This document shows positions 3,532-32,546 of a DNA stretch of 64,000 nt, in pieces. Position 1 is the stretch's first letter. Every line of letters starts with the position of its first letter. Position numbers and translations under genes: made by a program. This stretch comes from Lunularia cruciata (taxonomy: Eukaryota > Streptophyta > Marchantiopsida > Lunulariales > Lunulariaceae). The DNA is taken from positions 24,174,732 through 24,238,731 of the forward strand of contig OX419757.1 of the NCBI GenBank assembly GCA_948567375.1. Direction: 5' to 3'. A model generated the notes under the pieces. That model was not told the origin of the DNA, did no database searches, and was given only the letters and a program-made list of their open reading frames with translations.

Positions 3532-3648
3532 TACCAGATTTGAGATTTGAAGAGGCAGATATGAAGAGAGATGGTTTGTCATTTTGGATCTACAGGTTAG
3601 AAGAGTTGTTAAGAAGCGGTATAGTTGTTATAACTGTCGTTTTCTTCA

Positions 3649-3658
3649 CTATTTAAGA
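3649..3658 (+). promoter_or_regulatory. TATA-like box of giant LTR A
   Basis: CTATTTAAGA lies just after the reading-frame remnant and about 0.67 kb before the LTR end. Near-identical boxes occupy the matching place in the other full-size copies (12991-13000 on the minus strand, 23369-23379 and 62120-62129), which marks it as the likely LTR promoter and places the reading frame in U3. Confidence 0.5.
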
Positions 3659-8090: not shown

Positions 8091-8918
8091 GTTGTACTTT
8101 GAAACTCCAACACATCCTTTGTCAAAGAGTGGAAAGGTTGCATGGTGTTGAGAACTCCACTTGAGTAGATTGGTGATGTCAATGGAGCAAAGTAGCAAAT
8201 AGCAAGGAACCAAGGTGTAATAACTCCTCCAATCTTCAACCATTGGTATTGTCCACTTGAGTTTTGGCTTATCAAAGAGATTGATTTCTCAAAGCCAAAA
8301 TTAACATAAGTAGCAATAAATCCAAAGCCCCTTCCTTTGAATTACCTCTGCTTGTTCCAAGTTGAACCAACAAGAGTGGTTGATGCAGATAGAAGAAGTT
8401 CAACCAACTAATTGTTACATTGTTGAAAATCAAACTCCACTCCATAGAGCTCAATTCTCATGGATAGCTTGTTGGTATAGATCTCTCTTGTGAAAATCTA
8501 GATGGATTTTCTCTCTAAAGGCATGGTCAATAGGTAATTTGGCTCCATTGAGGCAAGAAAGAAGGAAGGCACAAGATAAAGGTGCATGGTCTGATTCAAG
8601 TTGAGGGTCTAAAATAGCAAAATCTAAGAAAATGTGTATATCATTGGGTGAGATGAGCATATAATCTACAATGGTTGATCTTACAAATTTTTGGAAATTG
8701 AGAAATGCCATTCAAGATCTTCAAGCTACAATTGTGTCAAAAGCTCAAAAAATGCTCACTCATGGGATTGGACATAAGATCTTTGGAATAGTGGGACCAT
8801 ATGGTACCCATATTTTTGTTTTTTTCTATTTTTGAGGAAGAAGTGTACAAATGAAGTCATATTGTACTTGCATGGCATCAAAAGGTGAAGAATGTTGTCT
8901 TTGGGTTGTAACACAAAG

Positions 8919-10805
8919 TGTGGTACCCACATTTTTCATTTTGGACGAGTTTTGAAGAAGAAGTGCCTTGTTGAAACCAAATGGGGAAGAAATGAGTGGA
9001 AACGTGTGTTTTGATCAAGCTTGAGGGAGTTAAATTTGTGTAAGAGGAAAAAGGACTCGGACTAGATCAAACCCGAAGAAGCTTATTTTGTGTCAGAGGA
9101 GGAAAAAATTTGCCGGAGGAGGGTTTCTTAGTATAGGAATAAAGGTTACAAGTCAGGAATACTGCAGGGACATATCTGAATGATCACAAGTCCAAATCAA
9201 GTGTACTATATCTCGTTGGAAGCGTCTCGTTCAGGGCTTTCCATTGCCACCAAAATCGCAAAGTTTAGAGGTCTATAGAAGAAGTTAGAAGCATTTGAAG
9301 TTTTGGGAGTAGATGTGAAGAGTAGTTTGGTATCTTCGGATCAATGTGACTTCGGACTTTGTATTTTGGACTTCGGGTTTACATGACTTTGGGTCATGAG
9401 ACTTCACTTCAAGACTAAGATGCCCAACTAAATCTGAGGTAGCTGGACCTCGGAGTGTAGTGAAAGTGACTTAGAGAATATAACGGGAAACATTAGAGGA
9501 AGTTAGAGTAAGGAAAGAAGATATTTAGGATACTCATGACTTATCTTATCTTCTGATTGAAGATAAGATAGAATTAAAGGAGAAGTAGCAGTAGTGAATA
9601 AACCCTAAGTACAGGATCAGACAATGTCTTTTGGGTCAGTTATATGAGTGAATAAGGGAAAGTGGGTTACAAATTGAAGGTGTAGATAGTGTATTCATAC
9701 TTTTAATTATAATTCTTGATGATCACACAATAGAATTAGTAAGTAATTGATAGTAGTTAAACCCAAAGTAAGAGAAGTAGGAGTGCAGGTGGCTTTGGAT
9801 TTGATATTTGACACTTTAGAGAAGAGTGGGTCGGAAGATAAAGTAGTAGAAAGGTTACCCATGACCTCAATTGTAGATCAGAGCAAAGAAGTAGTAAAAT
9901 TGATAGAAGAGTTAGGAGTTATGAAACCCGAGGACAAAGCAATAGGAAGTAAAGTTACTTTGGGTTTGGGTTTGAAAGCCGAAGAAGAAGTAGACACCAA
10001 CTTGGATTAGTAATCGATTTGAGATTTGAATAGGTAGATACGAAGAGGTGCATTGTCATTTTGAATCTGTAGGTTTGTAGAGTCATTAGGAAGAGGTACA
10101 TTAGGAAGATAACTGTCAATTGTTTCACTACTTAAGGGGAGAATTCTTAGTCTTATGTTGTTCAGTGCTCACAATTTTGAGAATAGATAAAGCAAAGTGC
10201 TATGAAGAAGTGCTCGTCGCTTGAGCTTGATTGCGAGTATGAACTTTGTGTTTGTGTTTGTGAGTGTGTGGAGAAACTCAAAGTGCAAGTCAATGTGCTT
10301 GTTGGATGTTGGATTCCACAGCTTTGATCTTCATTCTGTGTGTTTGATCCTGAGTGAAGTGCATCAGAGCAATGCCTTGATAGATCTGAGAGGTATTGTA
10401 GTGTTGGTAGTATTTTGCATTTGTGAGTGCCGTGCAAAGTTGATGTGAAGCAATTTTGATCAAGGAAGTTGTGCCTTCAATGGAAGGGTAGAACACAATT
10501 CTAAGGCAAAGTCGTTTTGCAATGAAGTGCCGTGTTTGGGATAGCTTGAATCATCACAATCAAGATTGTTTGGAAAGATTTGATAGAGTTGTGATTAAGG
10601 AGTGTTACTTTGTGACAAGACTTAGAATCAGTGTTTGTTACTCTCTTCTGGGTGTGGTTTCTACCTGAGAGATTAAAGACACAACCAATAAGAACTACAT
10701 TGTTACTGTTTGACTTTGTAGTTGGACATTTCTGACTCGTATCTCTGTGAGAACAAAATTTACTTACCTGATAACCGCAAAAGTGATATTTGCCAGTTTG
10801 TCACA
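8919..10805 (+). mobile_element. 1.9-kb solo LTR, variant of the G1 family (D2)
   Basis: Starts TGTGGTACCC, ends TTTGTCACA, and is flanked by perfect CAAAG duplications (8914-8918 and 10806-10810). The last 1.05 kb or so is the family 3' part: the tail of the reading frame, then the R-U5-like end. The first 0.8 kb is not like the other copies beyond the terminal 20 bases. It is either a subfamily with a replaced 5' segment or a recombinant. The intact duplication suggests it is younger than its host. Confidence 0.85.
9747..10010 (+). pseudogene. tail of the U3-borne frame in LTR D2 (fossil)
   Basis: Encodes only the conserved C-terminal tail of the LTR-borne protein: TLEKSGSEDKVVERLP and then KLIEELGVMKPEDKA, ending in an acidic stretch. 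The same tail is found at 3334-3531, 13117-13446 (minus strand), about 23090-23250 and 61835-62017. The N-terminal and coiled-coil parts are absent from this LTR. Confidence 0.6.
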
Positions 10806-10879
10806 CAAAGTAAAGTGACTTTGTGTCAGAAGACAAAGTACTCATATTGGTCTTGTCAGCATTCAAACTGAAGTAAGGA

Positions 10880-10996
10880 GCTGAGAGCCTTCTTGGGACA
10901 TGTCAGATACTACAAACACATCATATCAAACTATGTGGTGCTTGCTGCACCCTTGACAAAGCTGATGAAGGAGTATGAAGACTACCTGTGTGAAGT
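10880..10996 (+). mobile_element. pol fragment inside the G1 5' LTR, left part
   Basis: Matches 28204-28320 of the G1 core (start of the RNase H region, with LRAFLGHVRYYK-like coding). It begins directly after the 39-base duplication and is cut by a LINE; it continues at 19694. Confidence 0.8.
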
Positions 10997-11009
10997 AATA
11001 TTGACTTCT

Positions 11010-12180: not shown

Positions 12181-12990
12181 ACAAAGTCATAAGATTTCTA
12201 TTCAAAATCAAGGAAGGGGCTTTGGAGGTATTGCTACTTCTATCAAATTTGGCTTTGAAAAATCAGTCTCTTTGATAGGCCAAGATTCAAGTAGACAATA
12301 CCCATGGTTGAGGATTGGAGGATGTGACAACCCAGAAAATATTACTTGTGTGGTAATCAGGTAAGTAAAGTTTGTTCCCATAGAGATACAAGTCAAAAAT
12401 GTCTAAATACAAAGTCAAATGTCACAATGTAGTCCTTGATTTTGTCTTTAATCTCTCAAGTAGCAACTACACCCAGAAGAGAGTAACAAGCACTAATTTG
12501 CAGTCTTGTCACAACAATTTGTCACCCATAATCACAACTCCATCAAATCTTTCCAAACAATCTTGATTGTGATGATTTAGGCCCTCCCAAAAATGAAACT
12601 TCACTGCAAAACGACTGTGCCTCAAAATTGTGTTGAACTCTTCCATTGAAGGCACAACTTCCTTGATCAAAATTGCTTCACATCAACACTGAGCTACACT
12701 CACAACTACAAAATACTACCAACACTACAATTCCTCTTGGATCTGTCAAGGCATTGCTCCGATTGCACTTCACTCAAGATTAAACACACCAAATGAAGAT
12801 CAAAGCTGCGGAATCCAACAGCCAACAAACACACTAACTTGTACTTCAAAATTCTCCACACACTCACAATTACAAACACAAAGTTGATACTCGGAATCAA
12901 GCTCCAACAACGAGCACTACTTCACAACACTTCAGTTTATCTATTCTTAGAAATAATGAGCTCTGAACAACATATGACTGCAAATGCCAC

Positions 12991-13000
12991 CTTTAAATAG
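12991..13000 (-). promoter_or_regulatory. TATA-like box of giant LTR C
   Basis: CTATTTAAAG on the minus strand, about 0.67 kb before the LTR end and just after the reading-frame tail. The position matches the boxes in the other full-size copies. Confidence 0.5.
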
Positions 13001-13116
13001 GCAAAGCACTTCAATAGCTATCTGACAACTATATAGTTTCCTAACAACTCTAACCACTTGTAGATCCAAAATGACAATGCACCTCTTCATATCTGCCTCT
13101 TCATATCTCAAAATTG

Positions 13117-15623
13117 TTACTTCTCCAATTTGATGTCTACTTCTTCTTTGGCTTCCAATCTTGATCCCGAAGTAACCTCACATACTACTCTATCCTCGGG
13201 TTTCACAACTACTAATTCTTCTATCAATTCTACTACTTCTTTCTGATCTGCCATTCCTCTCATAGGTAACCTTTCTAATTCTCTATCTCCCGACCCACTC
13301 TTCTCTAATATCTCCAATGATAATTCTGAAGATATATGCACTTCTACTTCATCAACTTTAGGCTTTGCTCTAACATCCTTCCAAAGTTTATCTATCTTTA
13401 ACTTTACTAAATCTAATCTGATTGTGATATTTTCTTCTTCTTCCAATATTTTCCTACCTACACGAGTTCAAAGACTAATCAGCAAAGCATTCAAATCTTC
13501 ATCCTTTAGATTTCTCCTCTTCATCTCCTACACCAACAACTTTAACTCGTGCAACCTTGTTTCTTCAATTCTTACATTGGAGTTTGTACTCAACATTACA
13601 TTCATCTTTGTGACATCTCCTTCAATGGCTTGAGTCTCATCTTCCTCTCATGTTCTCTATCCGCCACCAATCTTGCCAATACATTGCTAGTTCAGCCTCA
13701 AATTTGGCTTTCACAATCTCCTTCTCCTTCTCCTTCTAAACAATCTTCTCCTCTAGATTACAAAGTAACTCCTGTAATCTTTCTTCTTCTCTATATCTCA
13801 TTGCCAACTCCCTTTGCTAGAGCTGCTTCTTCTCTTCTACACTCTCCATCACTCTATCAAGCTCTTGCTCCTTCTCTGCTACTGTTGCCATATTATGGAT
13901 AATTTCTAATCGTGAATCAACAAACTGTTGTTTCAAGATTTCATACTCCGCTATCTATCTTTCCCTTGCTATGACGTTCTGCCCTATAACTTGCTCTCTA
14001 CTTCCCACCTCCTTCTTTAAATTCTCAATCACTTGATTTTGTACTATTGCATCTACTCATAGTACCTCCTTCTCCTCCTCACCTCGGATTATACTCTTCT
14101 TCAACTCCAAGTTCTCTTCCTCTAATCTCGCTAACACCTGCAACACATTCTTTACTTTTGGACACTTTGACTGCATCTCTTTCTTCTTTTGCTCCAACTT
14201 TGTTAACAATGGGCATACAACCTCTAGTAAATACTCTACTCCTTCACTTTGATTTAGCTCAACTTGTAGACTTTTCTCCTTCTTTGCTCTTCTTCACTTG
14301 AAACTCACCTTCTCTGCTGCAATTGCGTTATTGGAATGGATTCTTTGCTCCCCAAACTTCCACTCTCCTCTCCCATTCTCTTACTCAATCCCGCTTCATA
14401 CTTTCCTTATGGAATGGACTCCTCTGTGAATGGTCACCCTCTTCTCCTCCTTCTATGGAACTTTATCTTTGGGTCTCGAGTTACATTCTTCCTCCATTTT
14501 CTCACTTTCCTTCTTCCTCCTCGGGTACCAATTGCATCTCTACTCCATCATCACTCTTGCTGCTTGCTTCAGCACTCTGCAATGTGAATTCAAGTTCTTC
14601 CTCCTTCTCCAAGTCTTCTAGCTTGTTCTCGGCTTCACCTTCTGATTCTTCACCCAATGATGCAATTACCACCAAGTCTTTCCTCGGGTTCATTTCCTGG
14701 TCTTCTGAGGTCTCGTTGCCCCTACTTCTTCTTCTTCTTGTCAATTCCTCTTTGGATTGTTTAAACTTTGGAGTTTTTACTTTCAATTGCACGCTCTGCC
14801 CCATCTGGACGTAGTACTTGTCATTGCTCCTTATTTGCAAGATGTATTGCTGCTCCTTTGCATTATCATCTCTTCTCAAATCAAGGTGGAAGTGCGACAC
14901 CATCTTTTGTCTCTCTGCCGTGTTGAGCAAATTCAGCCCCAAGTAGAAGTGGGCTACAAATGACACAATGTAGTGTGGAGGCAACTTGTCTTGCAAGTTC
15001 CACACCATTTGTCTCATATGCTGACACAAACTCTTTGCCCAATTGATCGGTTTGCCTACAAACATCTCATGGAAAAACACCGCTTGATGTTTCATCACAT
15101 AAGTAGTTCACTCAGGCTTCAAGATAGCCATCATTGCACTTACAATGCCTCTCTTTACAGGGTCCTTATAGCTCTCAACTTTGTAGCCTTTCTTTGTGCG
15201 CTTTGAAGAGAAGGCATCTCTCACTTCTTGGGTTTCTTCAGCTACCTCTCCTTTCCCCAAGAATGTAGCTCCCTGCTCTTTACCCACCTCTCTTCCAAGT
15301 ACTAACCTCCAATCCAACTTTGTCCAATGAGCTTGATTTCCTCTCTTATCTTCTCCCTTGGGCCTATCAAGACATTTACTCTTGATTATCTCAATCATGA
15401 AACCTGGAAAGCTTATGTTCTAGTTCCATGCCAGGAATGTGATCCAAAGTCTGCTCAAGACTTCAATTCTAGGGATCACATTTGATCTCCAAATTGCATG
15501 ATTTCTCACTATGAATTTTGAGTTCTTCTTCCCACATCCCATCTTACTTTCCTCTCCTCTGAGTTGGTGGCTACTCTTCCGACTGATCCCCGGACTAACT
15601 CTCCTAACTTCCTCTCGACACAC
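13117..15623 (-). pseudogene. U3-borne reading frame of the giant LTR, copy C (fossil)
   Basis: Best preserved copy of the LTR-borne frame. Open pieces on the minus strand: 15623-15420 (KKNSKFIVRNHAIW), 15398-15108 (LDWRLVLGREVGKEQGATFL), 15098-14502 (198 residues: VFFHEMFVGKPINWAK, then HYIVSFVAHFYLGLNLL, then an acidic E/K-rich hinge) and 13446-13117 (tail, with ELVVVKPEDR). The stretch between 14500 and 13450 is E/K/Q-rich on this strand and fits the coiled-coil part. No signal peptide, membrane segment, zinc knuckle or protease motif is visible, so it is unlike gag or env proteins I know. The forward-strand frames here are serine/leucine-rich shadows. Broken, function unknown. Confidence 0.6.
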
Positions 15624-16186
15624 TTGTGTGTCTCTTACTACACTTCCTTTCCCATGATCTCCCTAAGGATGACTCCTTGATGGCAATGGAAAATTACTTG
15701 TCATCTCTTTGTCTCTATCCCGAGTCTTATAGTGACATGCCTTCTTTGTCTTTCTTCACTTTGAGTTTCTGTCAAGAAATCAAACCTCTTTCATGCTCCT
15801 ATCACTGTCAATTTTCCCCCGCTCATAGGCCAACCATTTTTGTGTGCGGTACATTCTTGAATGTCCAACCCCAAAGGAAAGTTGTTACACTATCCTTGCT
15901 TTGAGTTGAGCACCCCCAAGCCAAAGTCTCCTTACTTTGGGTTGAATGTTGATAGGGAAATCCAAGTACTTCCTCTTCTGACACAAAGTCACTTTACCTT
16001 AGGTTACAACCTAAAGACACCATTCTTTGCCTTCTGATGTCATATAGGCACAATGCAACTTCTTTTGTACACTTCTTCTTCAAAAATAAGAAAAAAAAAT
16101 GTAGGTACCACAATGGAGTTGCTACACCTTACTTCCTTGCTGTTTGTTACTTTGCCCCATAGACATCACCAATCTATTCAAGTGGA

Positions 16187-16966
16187 GTGTTCAATACCAT
16201 GCAGCCTTTCCACTCCTTGACAAAGGATGTGTTGAAATTTCAAAGTAAAGGTGCAATACTTGTTCTTGGTGATTTTAATGCTAGGATCCAAGCCTCTCAG
16301 ATTCCTGAGTTTAGTTACCTTGAGAATGATCCTTTCCATAGTTTGATAGACCATTCTTGTGCTTGGTCCCCCTCTTCCAAAGATCTCATGTCCAATCCCA
16401 TGAGTGAGCACTTTTTGAGCTTTGGTACCAATTATAGCTTGAAAATCTTGAATGGCCTTTCTCAATTTCCAGAAACTTATAAGGGCACATGCTTTGCTTC
16501 TGGTGGACCAAGCATTGTAGGTTATCTGCTTGCCTCACCCAATGATATACACATTGTCTCTGATTTTGTTGTTGTAGATCCTGAACCTGAATCTGACCAT
16601 GCACCTCTATGTTGTCCCATCTTTCTTTCTTGCCTCAATAGAACCATATTACCTTTTAACCATACCTTTAGAGTGAAACTTTGTCTAGATTTTCACAAGC
16701 AAGATTTGTACCAACAAGCTATCCATAAGACATTGAGCTCTTTGGAGTGGAGTTCTGATTTTCAACAACATAGTGATCAGTTGGTTGAACTTCTTCAATC
16801 TACATCTACTACTTTATTTCCAAGAGGTTCTCATAGGAGAGACTCGGTCTCCCTTGCAATAGGTGGTATGATGCTGATTGTAAAATGGCAAGGATCAAAG
16901 CTATGGATAGGTCACTTTATGAGATTGCAAAAAATCAGGCTTTTGTCTCTTATAGAAAGTAAGTGA
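16187..16966 (+). CDS. LINE ORF2 endonuclease domain, copy e (partial)
   Basis: 259-residue open stretch of an APE-type endonuclease, the nuclease that nicks target DNA for LINE insertion. Visible motifs: LGDFNARIQ early on, and near the end of the domain SDHAPLCC (the D-H pair of the family). It lacks the N-terminal motif (WNVHGLT, present in other copies), because the solo LTR and a deletion separate that part; the bases just before the LTR (12203-12322) encode part of the preceding region. Downstream it runs into the linker to the reverse transcriptase in another frame, so the copy is dead. Family assignment is firm. Confidence 0.8.
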   Translation: MFNTMQPFHSLTKDVLKFQSKGAILVLGDFNARIQASQIPEFSYLENDPFHSLIDHSCAWSPSSKDLMSNPMSEHFLSFGTNYSLKILNGLSQFPETYKGTCFASGGPSIVGYLLASPNDIHIVSDFVVVDPEPESDHAPLCCPIFLSCLNRTILPFNHTFRVKLCLDFHKQDLYQQAIHKTLSSLEWSSDFQQHSDQLVELLQSTSTTLFPRGSHRRDSVSLAIGGMMLIVKWQGSKLWIGHFMRLQKIRLLSLIESK

Positions 16967-17104
16967 AGTGCAAGAAGTGGGCATACTTGAGACTCAAGGA
17001 GGTTGAGTGGCGCACAGAGTTGAGGCGCAATCCCAAGGCTTTCTGCAAGAAGGTAACAATCAGATCTCCATCTCCATCCTTGGATCTGAACGAGTTGTAA
17101 CTAT

Positions 17105-18376
17105 GTGAAGAATTTGTCCTTTTTCCCTAATGCTCCAAGCATAGCACCTAGGCTTGGATTTGCACTCACCATCTCTAAAGCTGATGTCAAGTACCAACTC
17201 AAGAAGTTGGCCAATGGTAAGGCGGAAAACCTTGATGGACTATGTGTTGAACTTCTGAAGTGGGGTGGTAATAATCTGATTCCAATACTCACTTCTCTCT
17301 TGAATGAGGCAATCAGGTGTAGCTTTCCTGATAGATGGTGCTTGAAGAAGGTAGTTCCAATTCACAAGCCTGGCCAGCGAGATATTGTTACCAATTACCG
17401 TACCAGACTAGTTGGTAGTATCTCTGCCAAAATGTATGGTTGAATTTTGGAGTCTAGGTTGAGCACTTGGGCTGAAAATTCCAGAATTTGAGCTAAGTGC
17501 CAAGTTGGTTTTAGATCAAGCTTTAGTACCTTGGACAACCTATTTGGTACTCCATGTTTTGTGGTGGAAATCTAAAGGTCTTGGGAGAGCTCTCTATGTT
17601 GCATTTATTGATTTCAGAAAGGCCATTGATAAGGTGCTTAGGAAATCTCTAAGTGAGAGACTCATTGAAGTTTGTGTTTCAGCTGATCTGATTGGTGCTA
17701 TGTCTAGACTCTATGAGAATGTGGTTGTGAGACTTTCAAATTTGAGCTCTCAAGATTTCCTTAGCTCAATGGGTGTGATTCAAGGTTGCTCTCTTTCTCC
17801 AACTCTGTTTGGAATCTTCATTGATGATCTAGAGAGACTACTCATGGAATTTGAGCTATAGGTGTACAGGTTGGCTCTTTGATGATACATGCACTCCTTT
17901 ATGCAGATGATGTAGTGCTACTCTCCACCAATCCACAAAGTTTATAGAAGTTTTTGGATTCTCTTCTTTGCTTTTGCAATCAAACAAAGATGGAGGTGAA
18001 CCTTGACAAGTCCAAGGTGATTGTGGTGGGTTCTAAAGGTGTCACACCTTTCCTTTTTGATGGACAGCAGTTGGATCATGTTTCTCCTTATAAGTACTTG
18101 GGCCTTGAGTTTTCTCATGACTATAGTTGGTGTATTTGTGTGAAGATGAGAATCAATGCAGGGTTTAGAGCTCTGTATTCCCTCATGAATTGCTCTAGAC
18201 TTGCTCATCTTACCACATTGGAGTTGAAAAAGGTATTTTTCAGATCTCTTGTGCAGCAGGTGGTTCTCTATGGTGCTCAGATTTGGGGTCCAGGTACTAA
18301 GAAGACATGGTGGGAAAAGGTGGAGAAAGTTCAGAAATTGATTTTGTGTGATGAAATTGGGATGAGGACTCAATGA
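17105..18376 (+). CDS. LINE ORF2 reverse transcriptase domain, copy e (frameshifted)
   Basis: Reverse transcriptase of the L1-type LINE in three open pieces (17105-17443, 17505-17861, 17954-18376). Motifs: LKKVVPIHKPGQRD (fingers), FIDFRKAIDKV (motif A), GVIQGCSLSPTLFG (motif B), then the catalytic YADD at 17899-17910 in a short stretch between the pieces, and SYKYLGLEF-like thumb sequence (SPYKYLGLEFSHDYSW). Stop or frame changes near 17430, 17862 and 17945 inactivate it. The last piece is cut by the minus-strand LINE at 18374. Confidence 0.8.
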
Positions 18377-18911
18377 ATAATGAACAATGAACAATGAAAT
18401 ATAAAGCCTGAAAGAACCAAAGAGTCAAAAGGCTAAAAACACAATACAAAACACATCAAATGTGAGCCTAGGCAAGAGCCTAGGGCATCTAACCAATGTG
18501 TAACAAACTGGTCCGATGTAAACTAACCCTGGTCATGTACTTCCCTAACGCTAAAGCCTCAATATGTAAGAGTGCTGAGAAATCAATACAACTAATCTGA
18601 TGTCTGACTCTAATCTGCTGGTAACAAGGGCAGTCAACAAACACATGGTGCTCATCCTCAACTTTGTTCATAGTACACAATTTTGCAAAGTTGCATGGAG
18701 TGGTCTATCTGCTGCCAATGCCCTTGTTCTACTTCTAGTCTATGAGAGCTAGTTCTATACCAAGCAATAACATGTCTAAGTGAAGTAGAAATCCTAGCCA
18801 AGAGATAGTCTTGCTCACAATACACGAACATAGGATTTACAAATTGTTGATAGAACACCATCTTGGTACCGGGTTGCTACCATAAGCAAAGTAAGAACTG
18901 CTCCTTGATCA
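18374..18911 (-). mobile_element. 5'-truncated LINE (copy f) inside copy e
   Basis: About 540 bases of LINE 3' end on the minus strand, beginning with the reversed (GTTCATT)n tail. It is flanked by GGACTCAA (18366-18373) and GGAACTCAA (18912-18920), a target duplication of 8-9 bases. It encodes on the minus strand the C-terminal knuckle region (phrase KVEDEHHVFVDCPCY). Because host and insert are opposite copies of the same family, 18374-18911 and 18912-19693 form a long inverted repeat. Confidence 0.85.
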
Positions 18912-19585
18912 GGAACTCAAACTCCTTATGTATTGTTGCTTGATGAAATAGGTTTTTTGCCTCTTGAGGCTAAAGCTTTGTTTTTGGCTCTCACATATGC
19001 CACTAAGGTGAGATCCATTGGAGCATGAGAGACTTCTCTAACAAACATTTTGTGCTACTCTATCTATTGGTTGGTATACAGATCTGATTGCATGGGCTAC
19101 AAGGTGGAATGTTTTTGAGCAACATTGGAGATTGGAGCCTATTGCACTACAAGAAGTGATCAAGGAGCAGCTCTTACTTCACTTATGGCAGCAACTCGGT
19201 ACAAAGATGATGTTCTATCAACAATTTGTAAATCCTTTGTTGGTGAATTGTGAGCAAGACTATCTCTTGGCTAGGATTTCTACTTCATTTAGACATGTGA
19301 TTGCTCGATATAGAAATAGCTCTCATAGACTAGAAGTAGAACAATGGTATTGGCAGCAGATAGAGCACTCTATGTGACTTTGCAAATTATGTACTATGAG
19401 CAAAGTTGAGGATGACCACCATGTGTTTGCTGATTGCCCTTGTTACCAGCAGATCAGAGTCATACATCAGATTTGTTGTAGTAATTTCTCTACACTCTTA
19501 TAGATTGAGGCTTTAGCGTTAGGGAAGTACATGACTGAGGTTAGTTTACATTGGACCAGTTTGTTACATATTGGACAGATGCCCT
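18912..19585 (+). CDS. LINE ORF2 C-terminal region, copy e (partial)
   Basis: C-terminal part of ORF2, open at 19132-19377: LLARISTSFRHVIARYRNSS, then SHRLEVEQ. Further on, in another frame, comes the C-x2-C ... H-x4-C knuckle typical of L1 ORF2 ends (C-KL-C followed by KVED and a CPCY phrase). The stop after the IGQMP-like end lies near 19585; the 3' UTR and tail follow. It is needed for RNA binding in L1 relatives; here it is broken. Confidence 0.7.
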
Positions 19586-19693
19586 AAGCTCTTGCCTCGG
19601 CTCACATTTCATGTGTTTTGTATTGTGTTTTCAGACTTTTGACTCTTTGGGTCTTCTAGGCTTTATATTTCATTGTTCATGGTTCATTGTTCA

Positions 19694-20452
19694 AGTCAAC
19701 AAGAAGCTTTCTAGGTATTAAAAAAGAAAGTGGTTGAAGCACCAATTATGAGGGCTCTAAATTAGGAGTGCACGTTTCATGTATATGTGGATACTTTTTC
19801 CATGGCAATTAAAGTAATCTTGAGTTAGAAGGATGAAAAGAAGAAGGACTACCCAATTTTTATGCCATTTGACAAGTACTAGTTTCAAAAAAGAATTATT
19901 TGACTATTGAAAGAGAAGCCCTTGAAATGGTTTATGCCTGCAAGAAGTTTTGCCACTACCTATTGGATACGAGTTTATCTTCTATGTTGACCATTACGTG
20001 TTGCAAGATTTGGTCAAGAAGGCAAACTTGTCCGTGCAAATTGCAAGATGGATCTTATTATTGCAAGAATTCACATATATTGTACAAGTAAGGAAGGGAG
20101 ATTCACATTCAAACACAGACTTCCTCTCTAGGTTAGAAACTCAAGACCAAGCATGGGAGGTCAATACTCGCTTCCCTAACAAAGAGTTGTATCAATTGAT
20201 AGCAATGCAAAGTATGAGGTATGCAGCAGAATACCACTATCTGCATACTCTCCAATGTCCCCATGGGCTTGACCTGGAGTAGACTGCAGTCTTTCTCAAG
20301 AAAATAGGGCCGTATTAGCTTAAACACAACATTTTCTTCAAGATGGGCAAAGATGAAGTACTTCGGTGATGCTTGGAGGCATACAAAGTCAGAGGAGTAA
20401 TTGAGTCTTTACAATCTGAAGCATCAGGGAGAGACTATGCCCTGAAGAATAC
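19694..20452 (+). mobile_element. pol fragment inside the G1 5' LTR, right part
   Basis: Continues 10880-10996 and matches about 28321-29081 of the G1 core: the RNase H region (TIEREALEMVYACKK), the connection to integrase (DFLSRLETQDQAWEV) and the first bases of the integrase zinc-binding region. It stops abruptly at a repeat of the 39-base LTR stretch that precedes its left end. It is therefore a copy of the family's own pol placed in its own LTR. Confidence 0.8.
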
Positions 20453-20815
20453 TCATATTGGTCCTATCAACATTCATACCGAAGTAAGGAAACTTTGTCT
20501 CGGGATGCTCAACCCAAGGTGAGGACAGTATAACAACTTTTCTTCGGGGTTGGACATTCAAAAAGGTACCGCACACAAAAACGGTTGGCATATGAGTGGG
20601 GGAAAATTGACATTAACAAGAGCATGCAAAAGGTGTGATTTCTTGTTAGAAGCTCAAAGTGAAGAAAGGCTGAGGAGACACGCCACTATAAAATTCAGGA
20701 TTGAGATAAAGAGATGACAAGTAACTTCCTATCACCATTAAGGAGTTGTTGTGAGGGAGATTGGGGAAAAGGGATTGTAGTAAGAGACACACTTGTGCAT
20801 CAAGATGAGGTCTAG

Positions 20816-23250
20816 ATGGTTAGTCCAGGAGTTGGGCGGAAGGGTAGCCACCAACCCAGAGTGGAGGAGAGTGGAAAGAAGAACTTGGAATTCATAGTGA
20901 GAAATCATGCAATTCGAAGGTTAGATATGTTTGCAAGAATCAAAGACTTGAGCAAGCTTCGGATCACATTTCTTGCATGGAATTGGAACCTTAGTTTTCC
21001 AAGTTTCATAAACAAGATAATAGAGAGTAAGTGTCTAGATGGACCCGAGGCAAAGGATAAGAGAGGAAATCCGGCTTGCTAGATAGAGTTGGATTGGAGG
21101 CTAGTACTTGGAAGAGAGGCAAGTGAGGAGCAAGGAGCCACATTCTTGGGGAGAGGAGAGGTAGCTGAAGAAACCTAAGAAGTACAAGACGCCTTTTTTT
21201 CAAAACGCACAAAGAATGGGTATAAGGTTGAGAGTTATAAGGACTTTGTGAGGAGAGACATTGTAGGAGCAATGATGGCCATCTTTAAGCCGGAGCAAAA
21301 TTCTTATGTGATGAAACATCAAGCGGTGATTTTCCATAAGATGTTTGCAAGGGAACCAATCAATTGGGCAAAGTGCTTTCATCATTGCACACGACAAATG
21401 GTGTGGAATTTGCAAGATAAGTCACCTCCACACTACATTGTGCCATTTGTAGCCCATTTTTACTTGGGATTGAATCCATTGAATGTAGTGGAATGACATA
21501 AGATGGTGTTGCACTTCCATCCCAACTTAAGGAGAGATGATGATGCTGATGAGCAGCAATACATTCTTCAAATCAGAAGTAATGCTGGGGTAGAGTGTGA
21601 GATTGGCAGTGAATGCTCCAAAGTCTAAGAAGAGGAGTTGACCCAAAGGAAGAAGTAGCAGCGATGAGACCACGGAAGACTAGAAAAGTGAACCAAAAGA
21701 AAGACCTAGTGGTAATAGTGTCATTGGGAGAAGAATCGGAAGGAGAAGCCGAATACAAGTCAAAAGTCTTGGAGAGAGAAGAAGAACTTGAACTCACATT
21801 TCAGAGTGGGTGAAGCAAATAGCAAGAGTGAGGATGGAGTGGAGATGCAGCTGGTACTAGAGGAAGAAGAGGGAAAGCTAGAGATGGTAGAAGAAGATAA
21901 GTGGAGGGAAGAACAGGAAGTTCCAAAGAAAGAAGAGAAGAACGTTATCATTCAAAGAGGTATCCGATCAAGAAGAAGCACAATGCATGAAGCGGGGTCA
22001 AGTCAAAGAAGAAAAATGGGAAGTGAGAGTTTGGAGAGCAAGGAATCAATTTCAATCATGCGGCTTCAGCTGAGGAGAAGAGTGTCATGTGAAGAAGAAG
22101 CAAAGAAGGAGAAAAGCCTACAAGAAAGAGGGAACTAGATTGGAGGAGTTGAGTATCTACGGGAGATTGTCTGCCCATTGCTAATGAAGCTAGAGGAGAA
22201 GAAGAAAGAAATACAGTGGGAGTATCTTGATGTAAAAATTGTGTTGCAGGTGCTGGCGTAGTTAGAAGAAGAGAACTCGGAGTTGAAGGAGAGTATAATC
22301 CAAAGAGAGGAGCAAAAAGAGGTACTACGAGTAGATGCAATAGTACAAACTTGGGTGATTGAGAATTAAAAAAAGCAATAGGGAGTAAAGAGATAATAAA
22401 AGAGCATAATGTCATAGCTAGGGAAAGATAGATAACTGAGTATGAAATCTTTAAACAGTAGTTTGCTGATTCTCAATTAGAAATCATCCATGATATGGCA
22501 AGGGTAGCAAAGAAGGAGCAAGAGCTTGATAGAGTGATGCAGAGTGTAGAAGAGAAGAAGCAACTCTAGCAAAGAGAATTGACATTGAGGTATAGAGAAG
22601 AAGAAAGATTGAGGGAGTTCCTTTGTTTTCTAGAAGAGAAGATAATGCAGAAGGAAAAGGAGAAGGAGGATATGAAGGCCAAATTTGAGGTAGAACTGAC
22701 AATATACCGGGAAGACTGGTAGGCAGATTGGAAATGTAAGAGAAGAATGAGCCTTGAGCCATTGAAGGAGATATCAGTGAAGATGAACACAATATTGAGT
22801 ACTGAAGCTAGTGCAAGAATTGAAGAAACAAGGTTGCACGAGTTAAGATTGTTGGTGCAAGAGACAAGAAGAAGGAATGCAAAGGATAAAGACTTTAATG
22901 CTTTATTGATTAGTCTCAAGACTTGTGTAGATGGGAAGATATTAGAAGTGGAAGACAATATCATGATTATATTAGATTTAGTTAAGTTTGAAATAGATTA
23001 ACTTCAGAAGGATGAAAGAGAAAAACCCAAAGTAGGAGAAATAGGAGTACAAATAATTTCAGAGTTGCTGTTATAGATATTAGAAAAAGATGGGTTACAA
23101 GGCAAAGATGTGTGTAGATTGCCCATGACGAGAATTTTAGATCAAGAAGAAGAGGTGTTAGAATTGGTAGAAGAATGGGTAGTTGGTAAACCCAAGGATA
23201 GAGTAGGGGATTGGAAGTTGAAGAAGAAGTAGACATTGGATTGGAGTAGT
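20816..23250 (+). pseudogene. U3-borne reading frame in the G1 5' LTR (fossil)
   Basis: Third copy of the LTR-borne frame, in the LTR of an element that still has its gag-pol core, which ties the frame to this family. Open pieces: 20816-21082 (EFIVRNHAIRRLDMFARIK), 21248-21496 (REPINWAKCFHHCTRQMVWN and HYIVPFVAHFYLGLNPL), 21613-21813 and 21788-22138 (acidic and basic charged hinge), 22747-23001 (coiled-coil end) and, near 23090-23250, the tail with VLELVEEWVVGKPKDR-like coding. The order equals copies A and C. Broken in several places. Confidence 0.6.
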
Positions 23251-23368
23251 AATAATTTTGAGATTTGAAGAGCTAGATATGAAGAGGTGCATTGTCATTT
23301 TGGATCTGCAAGTTGGTAAAGTAGTTGTAGAACGGTATAGTTGTTAGATAACTACTAAAGATCTCTAC

Positions 23369-23379
23369 TTATTTAAAGA
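23369..23379 (+). promoter_or_regulatory. TATA-like box of the G1 5' LTR
   Basis: TTATTTAAAG, 0.67 kb before the LTR end, after the reading-frame tail and followed downstream by ATATATAAAGCAAAG at about 23425. Either could be the start-site element; the first is conserved among copies. Confidence 0.45.
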
Positions 23380-24053
23380 GCGTGTTTGCAGTATGTTGTT
23401 GTTCATTATTCATTTTCTTGAGAATATATAAAGCAAAGTGCTGATTTCACTGCTTGTCACTTGACCTTGATTCCGAGTATAAGCATTGTGTTTGTGTTTG
23501 TGAGTGTATGTAGAATTTCAAAGTGCAAATCAATGTTTTTGTTGGATGTTGAATTCCGCAGCCTTGATCTTCATTCTATGTGTTTGATCCTAAGTGAAGT
23601 GCAATTGGAGCAATGCCTTGATAGATTTGAGAGGAATTGTAGTGTTGGTAGTATTTTTCAATTGAGAGCGCAACGCAATGTTGATGTGAAGCAATTTTGA
23701 TCAAGGAGGTGTGCCTTCAGTGGAGGAGTGGAATACAATTATGAGGCAAAGTCATTTTGCAATGAAGTGTCATTTTTGGGAGAGACTGAATCATCACCAT
23801 CAAGATTGTTTGGAAAGATTTGATGGAGTTGTGATTATGGGTGACAAATTGTTGTGACAAGACTGCAAATTAGTGTGTGTTACTCTCTTCTAGGTGTTGT
23901 TGCTACTTGAGAGATTAAAGATGCAACCAAGAAGAAATAATTTGGTTACTTTGCTTTGTATTTGGACATTTGTTACTAGTATCTCTTGGAGAACAAAATT
24001 TACTTACCTGATTACCACAAAAGTGATATTTGCCAAGTTTTCATATGAGTTTT

Positions 24054-24071
24054 TGGCACTGCTGCCGGGGA
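24054..24071 (+). other. primer binding site of G1, tRNA-Asp type
   Basis: TGGCACTGCTGCCGGGGA, ten bases after the LTR end. It resembles TGGCGCCGTTGCCGGGGA, the tRNA-Asp primer site of plant Tat/Athila elements. It fixes the 5' LTR end and supports the placement of G1 in that group. Confidence 0.7.
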
Positions 24072-24132
24072 TACAAATCTTGGAAGTGGAAGACTACAAA
24101 GCCAAACTTTAAAGGTTTTGAAACCAATATGA

Positions 24133-26250
24133 ATGTCTACATTGAGAGACAACAAGAAGAGAGAGTTTGAAGATGAACTCATCATGAAGAAGAAGAACGC
24201 CAAAAGATCCAATCTACTTTTGACAAAACTGAACGAGAGGCATTGGACTTTCAATTTCTTCATGAAGTTCAAGAAGCCTTGCAAGAACTCAAACAAAAGA
24301 AAGGTGGAAGCGGGTGGCAAGGCTACTTCTTGTCTCCATCTTCCAAGAAGAAGAAAGACTCCAATGGGCATACATACTCTTTGCGACCTAGTACATTGAC
24401 TTCCCCTAAAGCTATAAAGGAAGTCAAGTTTATAAAGAAATTTTTTTTGCAAAAAGACATCACAAACTTTGACGGAAGAAGAGTGTCAATATCTTCTATG
24501 CACAATTCTTTGATTGGCTCAAAGGACTTTCAAAGAACACTCTGAGGGTATTGAAACTCTTGCTTCTACTTGGGTTGAAGTCGACACAATCAAAGAAGAA
24601 GTAATTGTTGAAGAAGACCTCACGGTGAACTTGACCAATTAGAACCCTTGGGTTGTCAACACAACGTCAATACAAACCAATTCCTCAGTTCCATCAAGTT
24701 CAACCTTACCCAAGCAAACTCCACCAAGTCAAACAATGACTTTGTTACCTGTCACCCGACACACCTATCAAAAGTATAAGGGGACACAACAAGACAAATA
24801 CCCCAATGAATTTATCAAAGAATTAGAAGTCATTTCCTTTACCAATAAGGAATATGACTTGGCGGATCACTTGCAGATTTTCCCCAGTCTACTCCATAAG
24901 AAGGCTCAGAGTTAGTGTACGCATATAACTCAGAACAGGTTCATACAAGTAGATTGGGCAGACTTGAGAAAAATTTCCTAGAATTATTCCAGGAAGTTGA
25001 TCACAACACAAGTGTCTTTGCATCACTCAACGATTTGGATAGAGGAAAGAAGGAGAAGTTGAGAGACTACTCTGAGCAGTTCATGGCTCTCTTGAAGCAA
25101 GTCCCAAAGCAATTGGGTGTGATGGGTTACTCCGATGCCCAAGCCATTACTTGGTTCCTGAGAAGACTGTCGGTAGAGATTCTTATCCTTGCCAAGGAGA
25201 GAAGTGTAACTTCACTGGACAAGTTTCTCAAACATGTTGCCCGATACAAGGCGGCTCACTCTCATTCTTCTGACAGAATCAAGAGACAAAGGGCAAGAAG
25301 CCTAGAAAAAGAGCTTCTTGTAGTACATCCACTTCTTCAAAAGAATCCTCCACATCTTCAAGTTCTTTTTTGGAATCCGAAGAAGAGTCAAAGCCAAGAA
25401 GAATACAAAGATGCAAAGGAAAGAAATTACTGACACTCCCAACAAAGAGTGTACATAAGGCAAAAAATAGGATAGATACTCCTATAAAAAAGTTTGTGGA
25501 TTTTAAGATCTAGATGATTAGGGTGAAGGACCAAAGAAAGCCTCCATCATTTTGCAAATCCAATGTATGGTGTATGCCCGCGTGTAGCAAGTCAGGCCAT
25601 GCAAATCTGGAATGAAATACTTGTAATGCATTCCTAGTGCATTAGATGGATTGGGTCCTGAGATGGAACCAAGAAGAGAAAGAGGAGGTGGTGTACCAAA
25701 CTCAAGGGGTACTACCTCAGGCAAGCACATTGTACCAAGGTCCAAGGTATGGACCAAGGAAGTATAACCCCAATGCTCCCCCACAATGACCATTGATGAG
25801 CAACCAAAATTGACCTCAAAATGTTGCACCCGGAGCATGTTATAGTTGTGGCTTGATGGGACATTGGTCTCCAAACTATCCGGAGCCAAGATGAAAAATT
25901 GGGTATGTTCCCTTATGTGGGTATTGTGAAGGATTGGGTCACATGGGCAACCAATGCCCTCATCTATCAAACCCAAAGCTACCTGTGAAATATGTACAGA
26001 CCCGAGCTGAGAGTGCTGCGCTTTAAGCAAACGAGATACAACTATACATTGTATAACACTTGAGGAAGAGAGACCTCAAGAAGGGAGCCTGGCTTATGAA
26101 GATGAATGGTCGGACCTTGAAATTTTGAAGGTTGAGACATGCTCAAGTAAGAAGAAGTGTGATCCCAAGGAACTAAGTACTACCTCTTTGTCTTCACAAA
26201 AGGCAAAGAGACTGCACCCAAAGGCATTCTTTTTGCCAAGGAGGAAAAGA
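24133..26250 (+). pseudogene. G1 gag region (fossil)
   Basis: Gag of the Ty3/gypsy element. The best open piece is 24915-25433, with a retrotransposon gag-like stretch (KEKLRDYSEQFMALLKQVPK, then ITWFLRRLSVEI). Two zinc-knuckle-like motifs follow near 25845-25965 (CYSCGLMGH and CGYCEGLGHMGNQC). A leading charged region lies at 24133-24545. Gag forms the particle that packages element RNA. Broken in several places. Confidence 0.7.
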
Positions 26251-26524
26251 TTCTAGCAAAAGCTAAAGCTAAAGCTTTGCAGAAAGAACTCAAGGAAGTA
26301 GTACTCAGAACTCAAGAGATGAGTTTGGAGGAGGAGATGAAGATGAAGCCTCTAGTTTTTCCGGTGGACATCAAATCCAAAGTGAAGGATTTGATCCAAG
26401 CCGAGGTGGGCCAACCCAAGGAACATTGGATCAAGACCACTAGTACTCCAATCACCATCATGAAGCACCCCAAAGTCAAATTTGAACATGGTGAGACTTC
26501 AAACCAAAGACAAAGGCAAAAAAG

Positions 26525-27043
26525 GTGAAACTGGGAGGAGTACCTCAATACAATATTGTAGCGGATTTGGCATCCACAAGTGTGAATGTTACATTCAAAC
26601 AATTGTTGGAAGACAATAAGTTGTATAATAAGCAGCTAAGTTCCGCCCTCAAGAAAGTAAGGGTGATGTCTAAAAACAACCTGCCAGCCATTTATCATAT
26701 TGAACAAGAAGATCTAGGATCTCCCCAAGTTGATGTGGAGATTGCAAGGTGCATGATCACATCAATACTCATTGATTTAGATCTTGGTGTGAATGTCATG
26801 ACCAAAGATATTGCAAATTGGTTGGGGTATCATACGTTTGAACCAACACCTCAAGTTTTGAAATTTGTAGACCAAACCAGGAGACGGCCATTGGACATGC
26901 TGTCAAACATTACCACAATCATTGGAGTGTTACCTTTCAAATTGAACTATATTGTATTAAGACCATTTATAACGACGGATTACCTACTATTGATCAGAAG
27001 ATCTTGGTTGTATAGTGCCCAAGTTGAAGTGGATTGGCACTAG
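26525..27043 (+). pseudogene. G1 protease region (fossil)
   Basis: 172-residue open piece with an aspartic-protease-like context (ARCMITSILIDLDLGVNVM, then VLPFKLNYIVLRPF and DYLLLIRRSWLY, the pattern seen around the plant Ty3 protease end). The role would be cleavage of the gag-pol polyprotein. Position between gag and reverse transcriptase agrees. Confidence 0.6.
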
Positions 27044-27479
27044 GAAAGGTTGCAATTTAAGGACATATCGTCCAAGGACCAGAACCCAGTGACTGGAAGT
27101 TGGACAAAGATTCCACACCTTGGGGAAACAACTTTGTCAAAAGACAAGAATGAATCCGAACATTCATCATCTTCGTCTTCAGAAGATTCTGACGACAAAG
27201 TCCAAGTCAATACAAGGTAGACGTCAACGATGAAGACCCATATGACCTCACCTTGGGTGAAAATGACTTGGAGGAAGGAGGTTTGATGGCAGCTTGACTA
27301 AGATTGAGCCGAGTGAGTTATGTTGAAGGAGTCATCAACCCCGATGACTATCAAGATGTTGTTTTGGATGAAGGAAGAATCTTAAAATTTTTGAAAATAG
27401 TCACTTCAAAGGAATTGGCAAGATACACTGCCTTGTTTATAGAATTCTAGGATGTATTTGCCTGGTCTATTGATCAAAT

Positions 27480-28203
27480 TAGACAACACTGGATTGATCT
27501 AGTTGAAGGTGTAGTTTTGATTTGGCAAAGAGAGTACCGCTTGAACCCGATGTCTTGCTCTTGGAAAAAGATGAATTGACAAGTACATAGGGGCGGAATA
27601 ATCTTTCCTGTCTTATGTAGTGAGTGAGTCTCACCCATTGTCATTATCCCAAACAAGAAAACTAGGAAGATTTGAGTGTGCCAAGATTTTTTCAAGCTGA
27701 ATTTGGTTACAAGGAAGGATCATCATCCCTTGCCTTCTACCAATACAATTTTGGACCAAGTAGTTAGTCATCCTTGTTATAGTTTTCTCGATAGATTTAA
27801 GGGTATAATCAAGTATCCATCCAAGAAGAAGACAAGGATAAAACTATATTCACTACCAATTGGGGAACTTTCACTTACAATCAAATGCCCTTTGGGTTGT
27901 GTAATACTCCCGCTACTTTCTAGCGGATGATAGATGCAATCTTCAAGGATTTTCTATGCAAATTTATGGAAGTCTTCATCAATGATTTTTGTGTGTTTGG
28001 GCAAAGGGATGTACATTTGGATTACCTTCACCAAACTTTTGGAAGGTGTGGGATTGTCGGTTTGTCATTACACCCAAAGAAATGCTTCTTCACAATGATG
28101 GAGGGAATTCTTTTGGAGCATTGTGTGTCAAGCCAAGGTATTGATGTTGATGTCAAGAAGGTTAAAGTTATCTTAGCTTGGAATCCCCTAAAAACATTTG
28201 GGA
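27480..28203 (+). pseudogene. G1 reverse transcriptase region (fossil)
   Basis: Ty3-type reverse transcriptase. Visible stretches: RKDHHPLPSTNTILDQVV, CYSFLDRF, MEVFINDFCVFG around the catalytic site, and SLHPKKCFFTMMEGI, then SQGIDVD. The MEVF...DF.VFG pattern is common in the Tat/Athila group. Broken in several places. Confidence 0.75.
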
Positions 28204-28998
28204 GCTGAGAGCCTTCTTGGGACATGTCGGATACTACATACACTTAGTATCAAACTATGTGGTGATTGCTGCACCCCTTACAAAGTTGTTGAAGAAGTCC
28301 AAAGACTACCTATGGGAAGCAAGTCAAGAAGAAGCTTTCCAAGTTATGACGAAGAAACTGGCTGAAGCACCAATTATGAGGGCTTTGAATTAGGAGCAAC
28401 CTTTTCATGTATATGTGGATACTTTGTCCATAGTAATTGGAGTAGTCTTGAGTCAGAAGGATGAGAAGAAGAAGGACTATCCAGTTTATTATGCCAGCCA
28501 ACAATTATCAGTTTTAGAAAAGAATTATTTGACAACTTAAAGAGAAGCCCTCGGAATGGTTTATGCTTGCAAGAAGTTTTTCCATTATTTGTTGGGATAC
28601 GAGTTTGTCTCAATGTTGACTATTATGCATTGCAACATTTGGTCAAGAAGGCAGACTTGTCCGGGTGAATTGCAAGATGGATCTTGTTATTGCAAGAATT
28701 CACATATACTATACAAGTAAGGAAGGGAGCTTTGCATCCAAATGTGGACTTCCTATCCAGGTTAGAAACTCAAGACCAAGAATGGGAGGTAGACAATCGC
28801 TTCCCTGAAAAAGAGTTGTATCAATTGACAGCAATGCAAAGTATGAGGTATGCAGCAGAATACCACTATTTGCATACTCTCCAATGTTCTGATGGGATTC
28901 ACCCAGAGCAAAGGGCATTCTTTCTCAAGAAAATGGGGTCATACGAACTTAAACCCAACATTTTATTCAAGATAGGCGGAGACAAAGTACTTTGGTGA
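28204..28998 (+). pseudogene. G1 RNase H and connection region (fossil)
   Basis: Starts with ELRAFLGHVGYYIHL-like coding and continues through the RNase H fold (YVDTLSIVIGVVLSQKDEKK-type coding) to VDFLSRLETQDQEWEV and the stretch before integrase. It is the source or sister of the 876-base fragment found in the 5' LTR (10880-10996 with 19694-20452). Confidence 0.7.
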
Positions 28999-29001
28999 TG
29001 C

Positions 29002-30100
29002 TTGGAGGCATACAAAGTTGGAGGAGTAATTGAGTCTTTACACTCTAAAGCATCAGGGGGAGACTATGCCTTGAAGAATACTGTAAAGAAGATTCTTTCC
29101 CTGGAGTATTGGTGGCCTACAATGTATAAAGACACACATGACTATATCCAAAGTTGTGATCCTTGTCAACAAACAGGAAAGCGGATAGCTACTTCTCAAT
29201 GGCCTTTGAGACCAATTTTACCATTGGTGCCATTTAAGAAATGGGGAATTGATTTTGTGGGATGGATACAACCGGTAACCCAAGTCACAAGAAAATGATA
29301 CATTTTGGTTTGCACTAACTATGCTACCAGGATGGTTGAAGCCAAAGCAACTCACAGAGATGATGCGGAAATAGTGGCAGAATTTTTCTTTTGAAATATC
29401 ATCTCCCAATATGGATGTCCTTTAGAATTGGTCAGTGATAGATGGGCATATTTCTTGAACTCTATGATGGAGGCATTAACCAAGTACTTTCAGATTAAAC
29501 ATTGGAAGATGACTCCTTATAATCCCAAAGATAATGGCCTAACAAAGCAGGCAAATGGGTTACTCTGTAAAATTCTTAATAAAGTGACTATCAATTATGC
29601 CTACAATAAGAATACAAAGCTACCAACCGCATTGTGGGCATATCAAATGACAAAAAAGATCACAACCAAGAAAACTCCATACTTCTTGACATAAGGCTTG
29701 CACCTCATCGTACCAGTTGAATTTGAGGTACCGACGTACCAGATTTTGTGTGGGAGAACGGTTGTCAGAAGAAGAAAGTCAAGATTTTTGGATCCATCAA
29801 CTGATGTGGTTAGAAGAGCAAAGAGACGATGCAATGCAAATCATGAAAGATGTACAAGAACAGAGGAAAGTCAGGCACAATCAGCACATCAAGCCTATTA
29901 TTGTTTGTGAAGGAGATTTGGTTTGTTATATGACAATTGCCAAATATGTTTTCTAGGAAAATTGCATTTGAGATGAATGGAGCCCTATTGAGCACTTTAT
30001 ATTTATGACAATGGGTCCACTCAACTTGCAAACTTGGAGGTGCAACCATTTGCCACTCAAGTGAACAGGTGGAGAGTTTGAAAATATTGGAGGATAGACT
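29002..30100 (+). pseudogene. G1 integrase region (fossil)
   Basis: Integrase: zinc-binding region at 29002-29298 (WWPTMYKDTHDYIQSCDPCQ and WGIDFVGWIQPV), core region at 29300-29690 (KYFQIKHWKMTPYNPKDNGL) and C-terminal part to about 30100. It would insert the cDNA with a 5-base target duplication, in agreement with the solo LTRs of the window. Broken. Confidence 0.7.
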
Positions 30101-30151
30101 CGGAGGTCTCTAAGACACCCAAGGTCTATGTTTGCGGGGATGTTCACATTT

Positions 30152-30164
30152 GAAGGAGGGAGTA
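30152..30164 (+). other. polypurine tract of G1
   Basis: GAAGGAGGGAGTA directly before the TGTGGTACCC of the 3' LTR, the usual primer for plus-strand synthesis. It fixes the LTR start and so proves that TGTGGTACCC is an LTR end and not a transposon inverted repeat. Confidence 0.75.
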
Positions 30165-30234
30165 TGTGGTACCCACATTTTTGTTTTTTTCTTATTTTTG
30201 AGAACAAGTGAATAGAGGAAGTCGTATTGTACGT
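30165..30234 (+). mobile_element. 3' LTR of G1, first 70 bases only
   Basis: TGTGGTACCCACATTTTTG and the following bases match the 5' LTR start at 8800. The match ends near 30234, where the 5' UTR of a LINE begins. I do not find the rest of this LTR downstream in the window. Confidence 0.75.
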
Positions 30235-31690: not shown

Positions 31691-31711
31691 GAGAGATTAG
31701 TGATTGGCATA

Positions 31712-32528: not shown

Positions 32529-32546
32529 CAATTCTAGACCCTTAGA

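Follow-up and report, generated by a model that had tools for sequence, protein, structure and literature searches.

In a 64,000-nt stretch of the genome of the liverwort Lunularia cruciata (hereafter the window), long terminal repeats (LTRs) of about 3.8 kb that belong to a Ty3/gypsy retrotransposon family hold a long gene within their U3 region. The gene, bounded by a conserved ATG and a conserved stop, runs for 857 codons without interruption and takes up about two thirds of the LTR, and the distribution of substitutions over codon positions shows that it has been under purifying selection during transposition, with neutral decay setting in after insertion. We consider it likely that the family carries this frame as its third gene, that the product would be a late accessory protein made from the 3′ LTR portion of the element's RNA, and that the arrangement would have arisen through a shift in priming. 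The window had previously been read from its letters alone (the sequence-only reading); here we followed that reading up in the window and in the host assembly (566 Mb in 74 contigs, eight of them 60–85 Mb long).

The 3.8-kb units are the LTRs of a Ty3/gypsy element

One young element of the family, C8:40361899–40376265, could be bounded as a whole in the host genome. It has a 5′ LTR of 3,779 bp (40361899–40365677), a 3′ LTR of 3,735 bp (40372531–40376265), a primer site (TGGCGCCGCTGCCGGGGA), a polypurine tract and the exact duplication CTAGA/CTAGA on both sides; its interior was read for the first 1.2 kb. The two LTRs are 95.4% identical, with a Kimura two-parameter (K2P) distance of 0.048 over 3,432 bases. 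Thus, the paired LTRs of about 3.8 kb with a 5-base duplication, which the sequence-only reading had called for, are present in one fully bounded element. Among older copies, LTR units of 3.7–3.8 kb directly abut gag in three (#9, #12, and #17), and a fourth (#20) has a full 3′ LTR behind the polypurine tract. Exact 5-bp duplications were seen in 7 of the 10 insertions of which both flanks were read. Solo LTRs make up three of the six LTRs fetched for their long open frames (exact duplications ATGAT, CTAAC, and TCCTT), and exact duplications also identify c4 (GTGGA) and c13 (AATAT) as solo LTRs. The 3.7–3.8 kb units are the true LTRs of a Ty3/gypsy element.

The window contains five pieces of this LTR family, whose ends read TGTGG...TCACA: the LTRs A, B, and C, the 5′ LTR of an element that we call G1 (G in the alignments) and fragment F, together with a short copy, c2, nested in C (Table 1). 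Once later insertions are set aside the giant LTRs are of equal size, as the earlier reading held, with 3,772 bp for A, 3,790 bp for B and about 3,791 bp for C without its nested insert. Less favourable are the flanking duplications, of which those at A and C match in four of five bases and that at B, unconvincingly, in three of five. Since c2 lacks most of the frame as well as the TATA-like box described below, we take it for a long LTR with a probable internal deletion and not for a member of a short-LTR subfamily.

G1 retains a broken gag-pol core. Its gag-like part matches Ty3_capsid below the cutoff of that family, and the Pfam matches in pol follow the order RVT_1 (1e-10), RT_RNaseH_2 (3e-28), Integrase_H2C2 (1.5e-11), and rve (1.2e-5, below cutoff). 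With reverse transcriptase (RT) and RNase H followed by integrase (INT) in pol, the core is that of a Ty3/gypsy element. The integrase piece gave six protein matches, one of them from Riccia fluitans with 59% identity over 80%. The host genome itself matches this Riccia protein at 71% at best, and R. fluitans was rejected as the host. In this decayed copy, a search in three frames of the gaps between protease and RT, between RNase H and INT, and after INT gave no Pfam match to an RNase H beyond the one in pol, and a search in three frames of 29691–30172 gave no match to a chromodomain at the integrase end. The primer site of G1 is presumably a near-complement of the 3′ end of tRNA-Asp. The sequence-only reading had taken G1 as proof that the giant units are LTRs; the primer site, the purine tract and the shared LTR start agree with this, but because no more than about 70 bp of the 3′ LTR remain there is no complete LTR pair in G1, and the pair was seen only elsewhere, in the C8 element.

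Two further observations concern the surroundings of G1. A fragment with RNase H and INT sequence, lying in the same direction as the shortened G1 5′ LTR and next to it, seems to be what is left of a neighbouring element, either tandem or deleted. An open frame of 185 codons runs antisense to the G1 core (25518–26075) and is probably due to chance.

The LTRs contain a reading frame under purifying selection

A single phase runs through A, B, and G over alignment columns 403–2987, where it meets 44 stops and the two remaining phases meet 174 and 269, and remnants of the frame persist in C; the earlier claim that each LTR keeps the remnant of one long frame at the same place thus held. Among the three window copies A, B, and G, dN/dS in this frame is 0.15–0.22. 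It is about 0.7–1.1 in the other forward frames and in two of the three reverse frames, and 0.28–0.33 in the reverse frame that shares its third positions. An antisense gene was considered and rejected, as the value in this last frame lies above that in the forward frame. In A, B, and G divergence at third codon positions is about double that at the first two, and in a scan of these copies third positions are the most divergent in each 120-column window of columns 500–3,020, if weakly so in the last.

We then compared nine LTRs, namely A, B, and G, three further 5′ LTRs, one 3′ LTR and two solo LTRs. Divergence at third positions of the frame is doubled, with an excess of 0.146 (shuffle s.d. 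0.010, z 14.6), above all 5,000 shuffles, and on this ground a chance open frame was rejected. No such excess was found in the 415 columns before or the 807 columns after the frame. The start ATG is present in all nine LTRs and the codon-position bias begins at that very ATG, which is therefore probably the one used. No insertion or deletion interrupts the 858 codons in five LTRs. Intactness was judged only by the absence of a stop or by our own translation; on this basis, the gene is intact over its 857 codons in two of the six fetched LTRs, a set picked for the length of the open frame.

The LTR pair of the C8 element shows a different pattern. Its differences are spread evenly over the codon positions (0.048, 0.051, and 0.044, with 0.042 outside the frame), unlike those between elements, where third positions show the excess. 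This evenness places selection on the transposing lineage and the beginning of decay after insertion. Constraint that acts during transposition and ends at insertion is the mark of a gene of the element and not of a host gene.

The frame lies in U3 and is the next gene after pol

The frame starts about 410 bp into the LTR. In A, B, G, and C its stop is followed after 117–120 bp by a TATA-like box, TATTTAA, for which fragment F has TACTTAA. As the sequence-only reading proposed, the frame thus lies between the LTR start and a conserved TATA-like box, within U3 if the box is the promoter, as we infer. The distance from the pol stop to the LTR is 11 bp in all four copies read, the decayed copy c20 also having an earlier stop. 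Since pol ends so close to the LTR, the U3 frame would be the next gene on the RNA. Its place is that of an env-like third gene, except that it lies inside U3, and we infer that it would be the last gene on the element RNA. In most LTRs read, an acceptor-like AG precedes the ATG by about 60–70 bases, which suggests that the gene is perhaps translated from a spliced messenger. The acceptor-like pattern TTCTTG(GT/AC)AG occurs at LTR positions of about 330–415 (about 480–565 in L049), together with a second TATA-like box, CTATAAAAA.

Most copies examined carry the frame

Twenty young elements (rows 2–21) were chosen solely by the rank of their gag match to the C8 element, from a search in which 40 of 2,355 candidates were scored, all with 94–100% identity. 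They were examined with a 300-base probe at the place where the frame is expected in the 5′ LTR and a second probe at the expected place in the 3′ LTR. In this set, which is ranked by likeness to a copy already known to carry the frame, the frame was found at the 5′ place in 18 of the 20 elements, at the 3′ place in 12 and at both in 10. Where a probe missed, inspection by eye showed other transposons, pol, the part of the LTR behind the frame or sequence of no recognised kind.

An older set of 20 copies was selected by likeness to the start of G1 gag (rows 2–22 of 40, with row 15 omitted). Stretches of 100 or more residues of the frame were recognised at the protein level in the 5′ flanks of 15 of these, some of the matches lying in further LTR pieces upstream. 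Most copies in both sets thus carry the frame, and its lack from most paired-LTR copies, which the earlier reading had named as a refutation, was not seen. The matched stretches can be highly diverged, being only about 29–58% identical in protein in copies #2, #14, and #18. Old 5′ LTRs that appeared to be frame-less, with blastn matches ending near LTR position 2,956, proved to contain the frame in diverged form at the protein level. In the 5′ LTRs of subfamilies (L010, L012, L014, L021, L022, and L026) the frame was largely beyond the reach of blastn with LTR B and was found by translated search; these LTRs partly match one another.

In copies #5 and #11, whose flanks (L013 and L019 on contig C10) are 97% alike, a TATTTAAA box precedes gag by about 260 bp. 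These flanks show neither the frame nor an LTR start motif upstream, and antisense pol of another element lies further up; they may be rearranged or may represent another U3 type.

The predicted protein

The product of L049 has 857 residues, a mass of 99 kDa and an acidic pI of 5.4. It consists of a conserved N-terminal half, a charged linker and a C-terminal half that is rich in E, K, R, and Q and coiled-coil-like, with a heptad signal, by a crude measure of periodicity, near residues 481–536 and 601–656. Matches to RNA_pol_Rbc25, Exo_endo_phos_3, and PRS7_OB fell below the cutoffs, occurred in one of five members and were absent at E 0.1 in the intact copies; we set them aside as chance.

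Favoured explanation and alternatives

The explanation that we favour as likely reads the element as an LTR and primer site, then gag-pol, whose end falls 11 bp short of the LTR, then the polypurine tract, U3, and R-U5, where U3 would be made up of a leader of about 410 bp, the 857-codon gene, about 120 bp and the promoter. Full-length RNA would start behind TATTTAA of the 5′ LTR and end in R of the 3′ LTR, and the U3 gene would be translated from the 3′ LTR part of this RNA, perhaps via a spliced messenger. The product would act as the late accessory protein of the element, a counterpart of the env-like sense open reading frames (ORFs) of Athila-type elements. As to its origin, the tract that primes the second strand probably lay behind an env-like third gene at first, and its role then passed to a tract before that gene; after such a shift the gene would have been part of U3 and would have been copied into both LTRs in every round.

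Several observations weigh against this explanation. No relative with the gene outside the LTR was seen. The acceptor-like pattern is present in only seven of the nine LTRs, and in six of these seven another ATG stands between the site and the start. When sites were collected by protein likeness, 19 of the 116 best-scoring among 24,504 candidates for the N-terminal 348 residues were free of stops within the match, but for the full protein only 2 of the best 53 of 35,078 were, one of them the query, and most best matches are broken; as these fractions come from the best-scoring sites, neither describes the family as a whole. Five older copies (#5, #11, #15, #16, and #19) lack the frame, with LTR-like sequence extending over just 0–370 bp at gag; their LTRs may have been cut, or they may belong to a frame-less subfamily. 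For the protein, no homologue was found at E <= 1 with the N-terminal 386 residues (3,236 candidates) or with the same part inside an 803-residue reading (3,368 candidates), no Pfam family, Athila ORF-1 (PF03078) included, when two intact frames were searched at E 0.1, and no PDB chain at E 1 by sequence; an AlphaFold model from five rows had a mean pLDDT of 35 and was not used. With no homologue, domain or usable fold, function is a guess from position, and the product is most likely a late accessory protein, placed like sag of mouse mammary tumour virus (MMTV). Finally, each of the six young LTRs that were aligned has the TATA-like CTATAAAAA some 27 nt ahead of the ATG, which could mean that the gene has a promoter of its own.

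This last point is the starting point of an explanation that we think unlikely, in which the gene is self-contained in the LTR. The CTATAAAAA box would drive it from every LTR, solo LTRs included, the transcription unit would end in R, and the protein would serve the family in trans, for instance by counteracting silencing or aiding RNA export. The solo LTRs L051, L052, and L054 do keep long frames, each with at least one stop, and R/U5 gave 8,352 candidate sites as against 2,355 for gag, counts that are unscored and come from queries of unequal length. The box is weaker in B and c20 and degraded in A, however, and a transcript starting about 30 nt past it would begin at the ATG itself and so have no leader, although the codon-position bias speaks for the use of that ATG. 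That the LTR is a replicating gene unit, with its own promoter and its own polyadenylation region, and solo LTRs a potential source of protein in trans, also seems to us improbable. That the frame is a passenger, a host or foreign gene caught in the LTR that hitch-hikes without being of use to the element, would fit the lack of known relatives and the broken state of most best matches, but is very improbable: purifying selection shows when elements are compared with one another and not when an element's own two LTRs are, and subfamilies whose matched stretches have diverged as far as stated above still keep a frame that a passenger would have lost. We give least credence to the idea that two element types are confounded, the 3.8-kb units coming from some other mobile element or from only some members, and the core otherwise having shorter LTRs. 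G1 with one near-full LTR and a stub, the 789-bp c2, and the five older copies with little LTR-like sequence at gag, including #5 and #11 with their TATTTAAA box close to gag, speak for it. Against it, full units abut gag in three copies, and the C8 element joins its LTR pair to a duplication, a primer site and a polypurine tract, so that a core with short LTRs, which the sequence-only reading had named as its own refutation, is not what we found. Moreover, c2, which also lacks the TATA-like box, seems to be a long LTR shortened by a deletion, no short-LTR pair was seen, and #5 and #11 have antisense pol of another element further upstream.

Other features of the window

Outside the LTR family, a dense mosaic of broken LINE-like pieces, many of them mutually inverted, fills 16115–20450, 31331–45204, and 54242–55683; endonuclease-like and RT-like frames were recognised in it by eye. 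An open frame of 195 codons lies at 49520–50107.

Table 1 Positions of LTR-family and G1 features in the window (RH, RNase H)
Feature	Position	Strand	Remarks
Solo LTR A, TGTGG...CATA	556..4327	+	3,772 bp; duplication GGTGA/GATGA (4 of 5 bases)
Decayed U3 frame in LTR A	960..3531	+	Conserved ATG to conserved stop
TATA-like box TATTTAAG in LTR A	3650..3657	+	3′ of the frame
Fragment F, 3′ part of same LTR family	9759..10805	+	With stop and TATA-like region
Solo LTR B	12323..16112	-	3,790 bp; flanks TCCAT/TCCTC, no clear duplication
TATA-like box TATTTAAA in LTR B	12992..12999	-	3′ of the frame
Decayed U3 frame in LTR B	13117..15704	-	14502–15107 still open, 201 codons
RH/INT fragment of second copy	19692..20453	+	85% to 28320–29082; directly upstream of G1 5′ LTR
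G1 5′ LTR	20463..24045	+	Without first ~155 bp
Decayed U3 frame in G1 5′ LTR	20714..23249	+	
TATA-like box TATTTAAA in G1 5′ LTR	23370..23377	+	
G1 gag-pol core, broken	24046..30153	+	gag-like, RT, RNase H, INT
Primer-site-like TGGCACTGCTGCCGGGGA, G1	24054..24071	+	Behind 5′ LTR
pol stop TGA, then polypurine tract, G1	30151..30164	+	Stop-to-LTR gap 11 bp
G1 3′ LTR stub, same LTR start	30165..30234	+	~70 bp
Solo LTR C with nested insertion	58201..62785	+	Duplication TGCAT/AGCAT; frame remnants ~58775 to ~62000
c2, internally deleted LTR nested in C	59869..60657	+	789 bp; exact duplication GCGAC/GCGAC

Discussion

A gene that lies in U3 is doubled at each insertion, persists in solo LTRs and has the polypurine tract on one side and the promoter on the other. 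Its presence offers one testable reason for the great length of some LTRs, and genes of this kind would be missed by pipelines that take LTRs as non-coding. The young copies described here make expression and function testable in the living plant.

The sequence-only reading knew of no described plant family like this one, and we found none in the literature that we searched on extra ORFs and on ORFs in LTRs, most subscription papers lying outside that search. Ty3/Gypsy bursts have been described in Lunularia itself, the available text making no mention of ORFs (PMC9985172), and the available text of another paper has nothing on ORFs in LTRs (PMC11963269). The extra ORFs of plant LTR retrotransposons reported in the accessible part of PMC7264820 are in the internal region; the method used there would not exclude ORFs in LTRs, and none is so named in that part.

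Athila and other OTA elements resemble the present family in being non-chromovirus Ty3/gypsy elements with large LTRs, up to about 5 kb (PMC6317226), and with a third gene behind pol in sense. Their extra ORF, however, is in the internal region according to the text available (PMC7264820) and not inside U3, and our protein gave no match to Athila ORF-1 (PF03078), which itself is found in only 16% of Athila elements (PMC6317226). Ogre, Tat and Retand elements likewise have very long LTRs and extra ORFs. The comparison with Ogre/Tat made in the sequence-only reading holds as far as position is concerned, but the additional RNase H, given as the mark of Tat in the available part of PMC6317226, was not found in the decayed G1. 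In rice, Retrosat2 likewise combines LTRs of more than 3.2 kb with an additional ORF, whose function is unknown (PMC3485330). As far as the accessible text goes, this ORF0 lies upstream of the gag-pol ORF and apart from the LTRs (PMC3485330), and the element is a chromovirus of the Tekay/Del group (PMC6317226).

In arrangement the family resembles MMTV. There too, the LTR is long because a gene, sag, lies in it. MMTV is a mouse retrovirus with LTRs of about 1.3 kb that has env besides, and sag is much smaller than the gene described here. The product of sag is expressed from a spliced RNA (PMC3026287). The Lunularia family, by comparison, is a plant Ty3/gypsy element in which pol reaches so near the LTR that no further gene would fit between them, and it is sag-like in that a conserved gene under selection lies wholly inside U3, between the LTR start and the TATA-like box.

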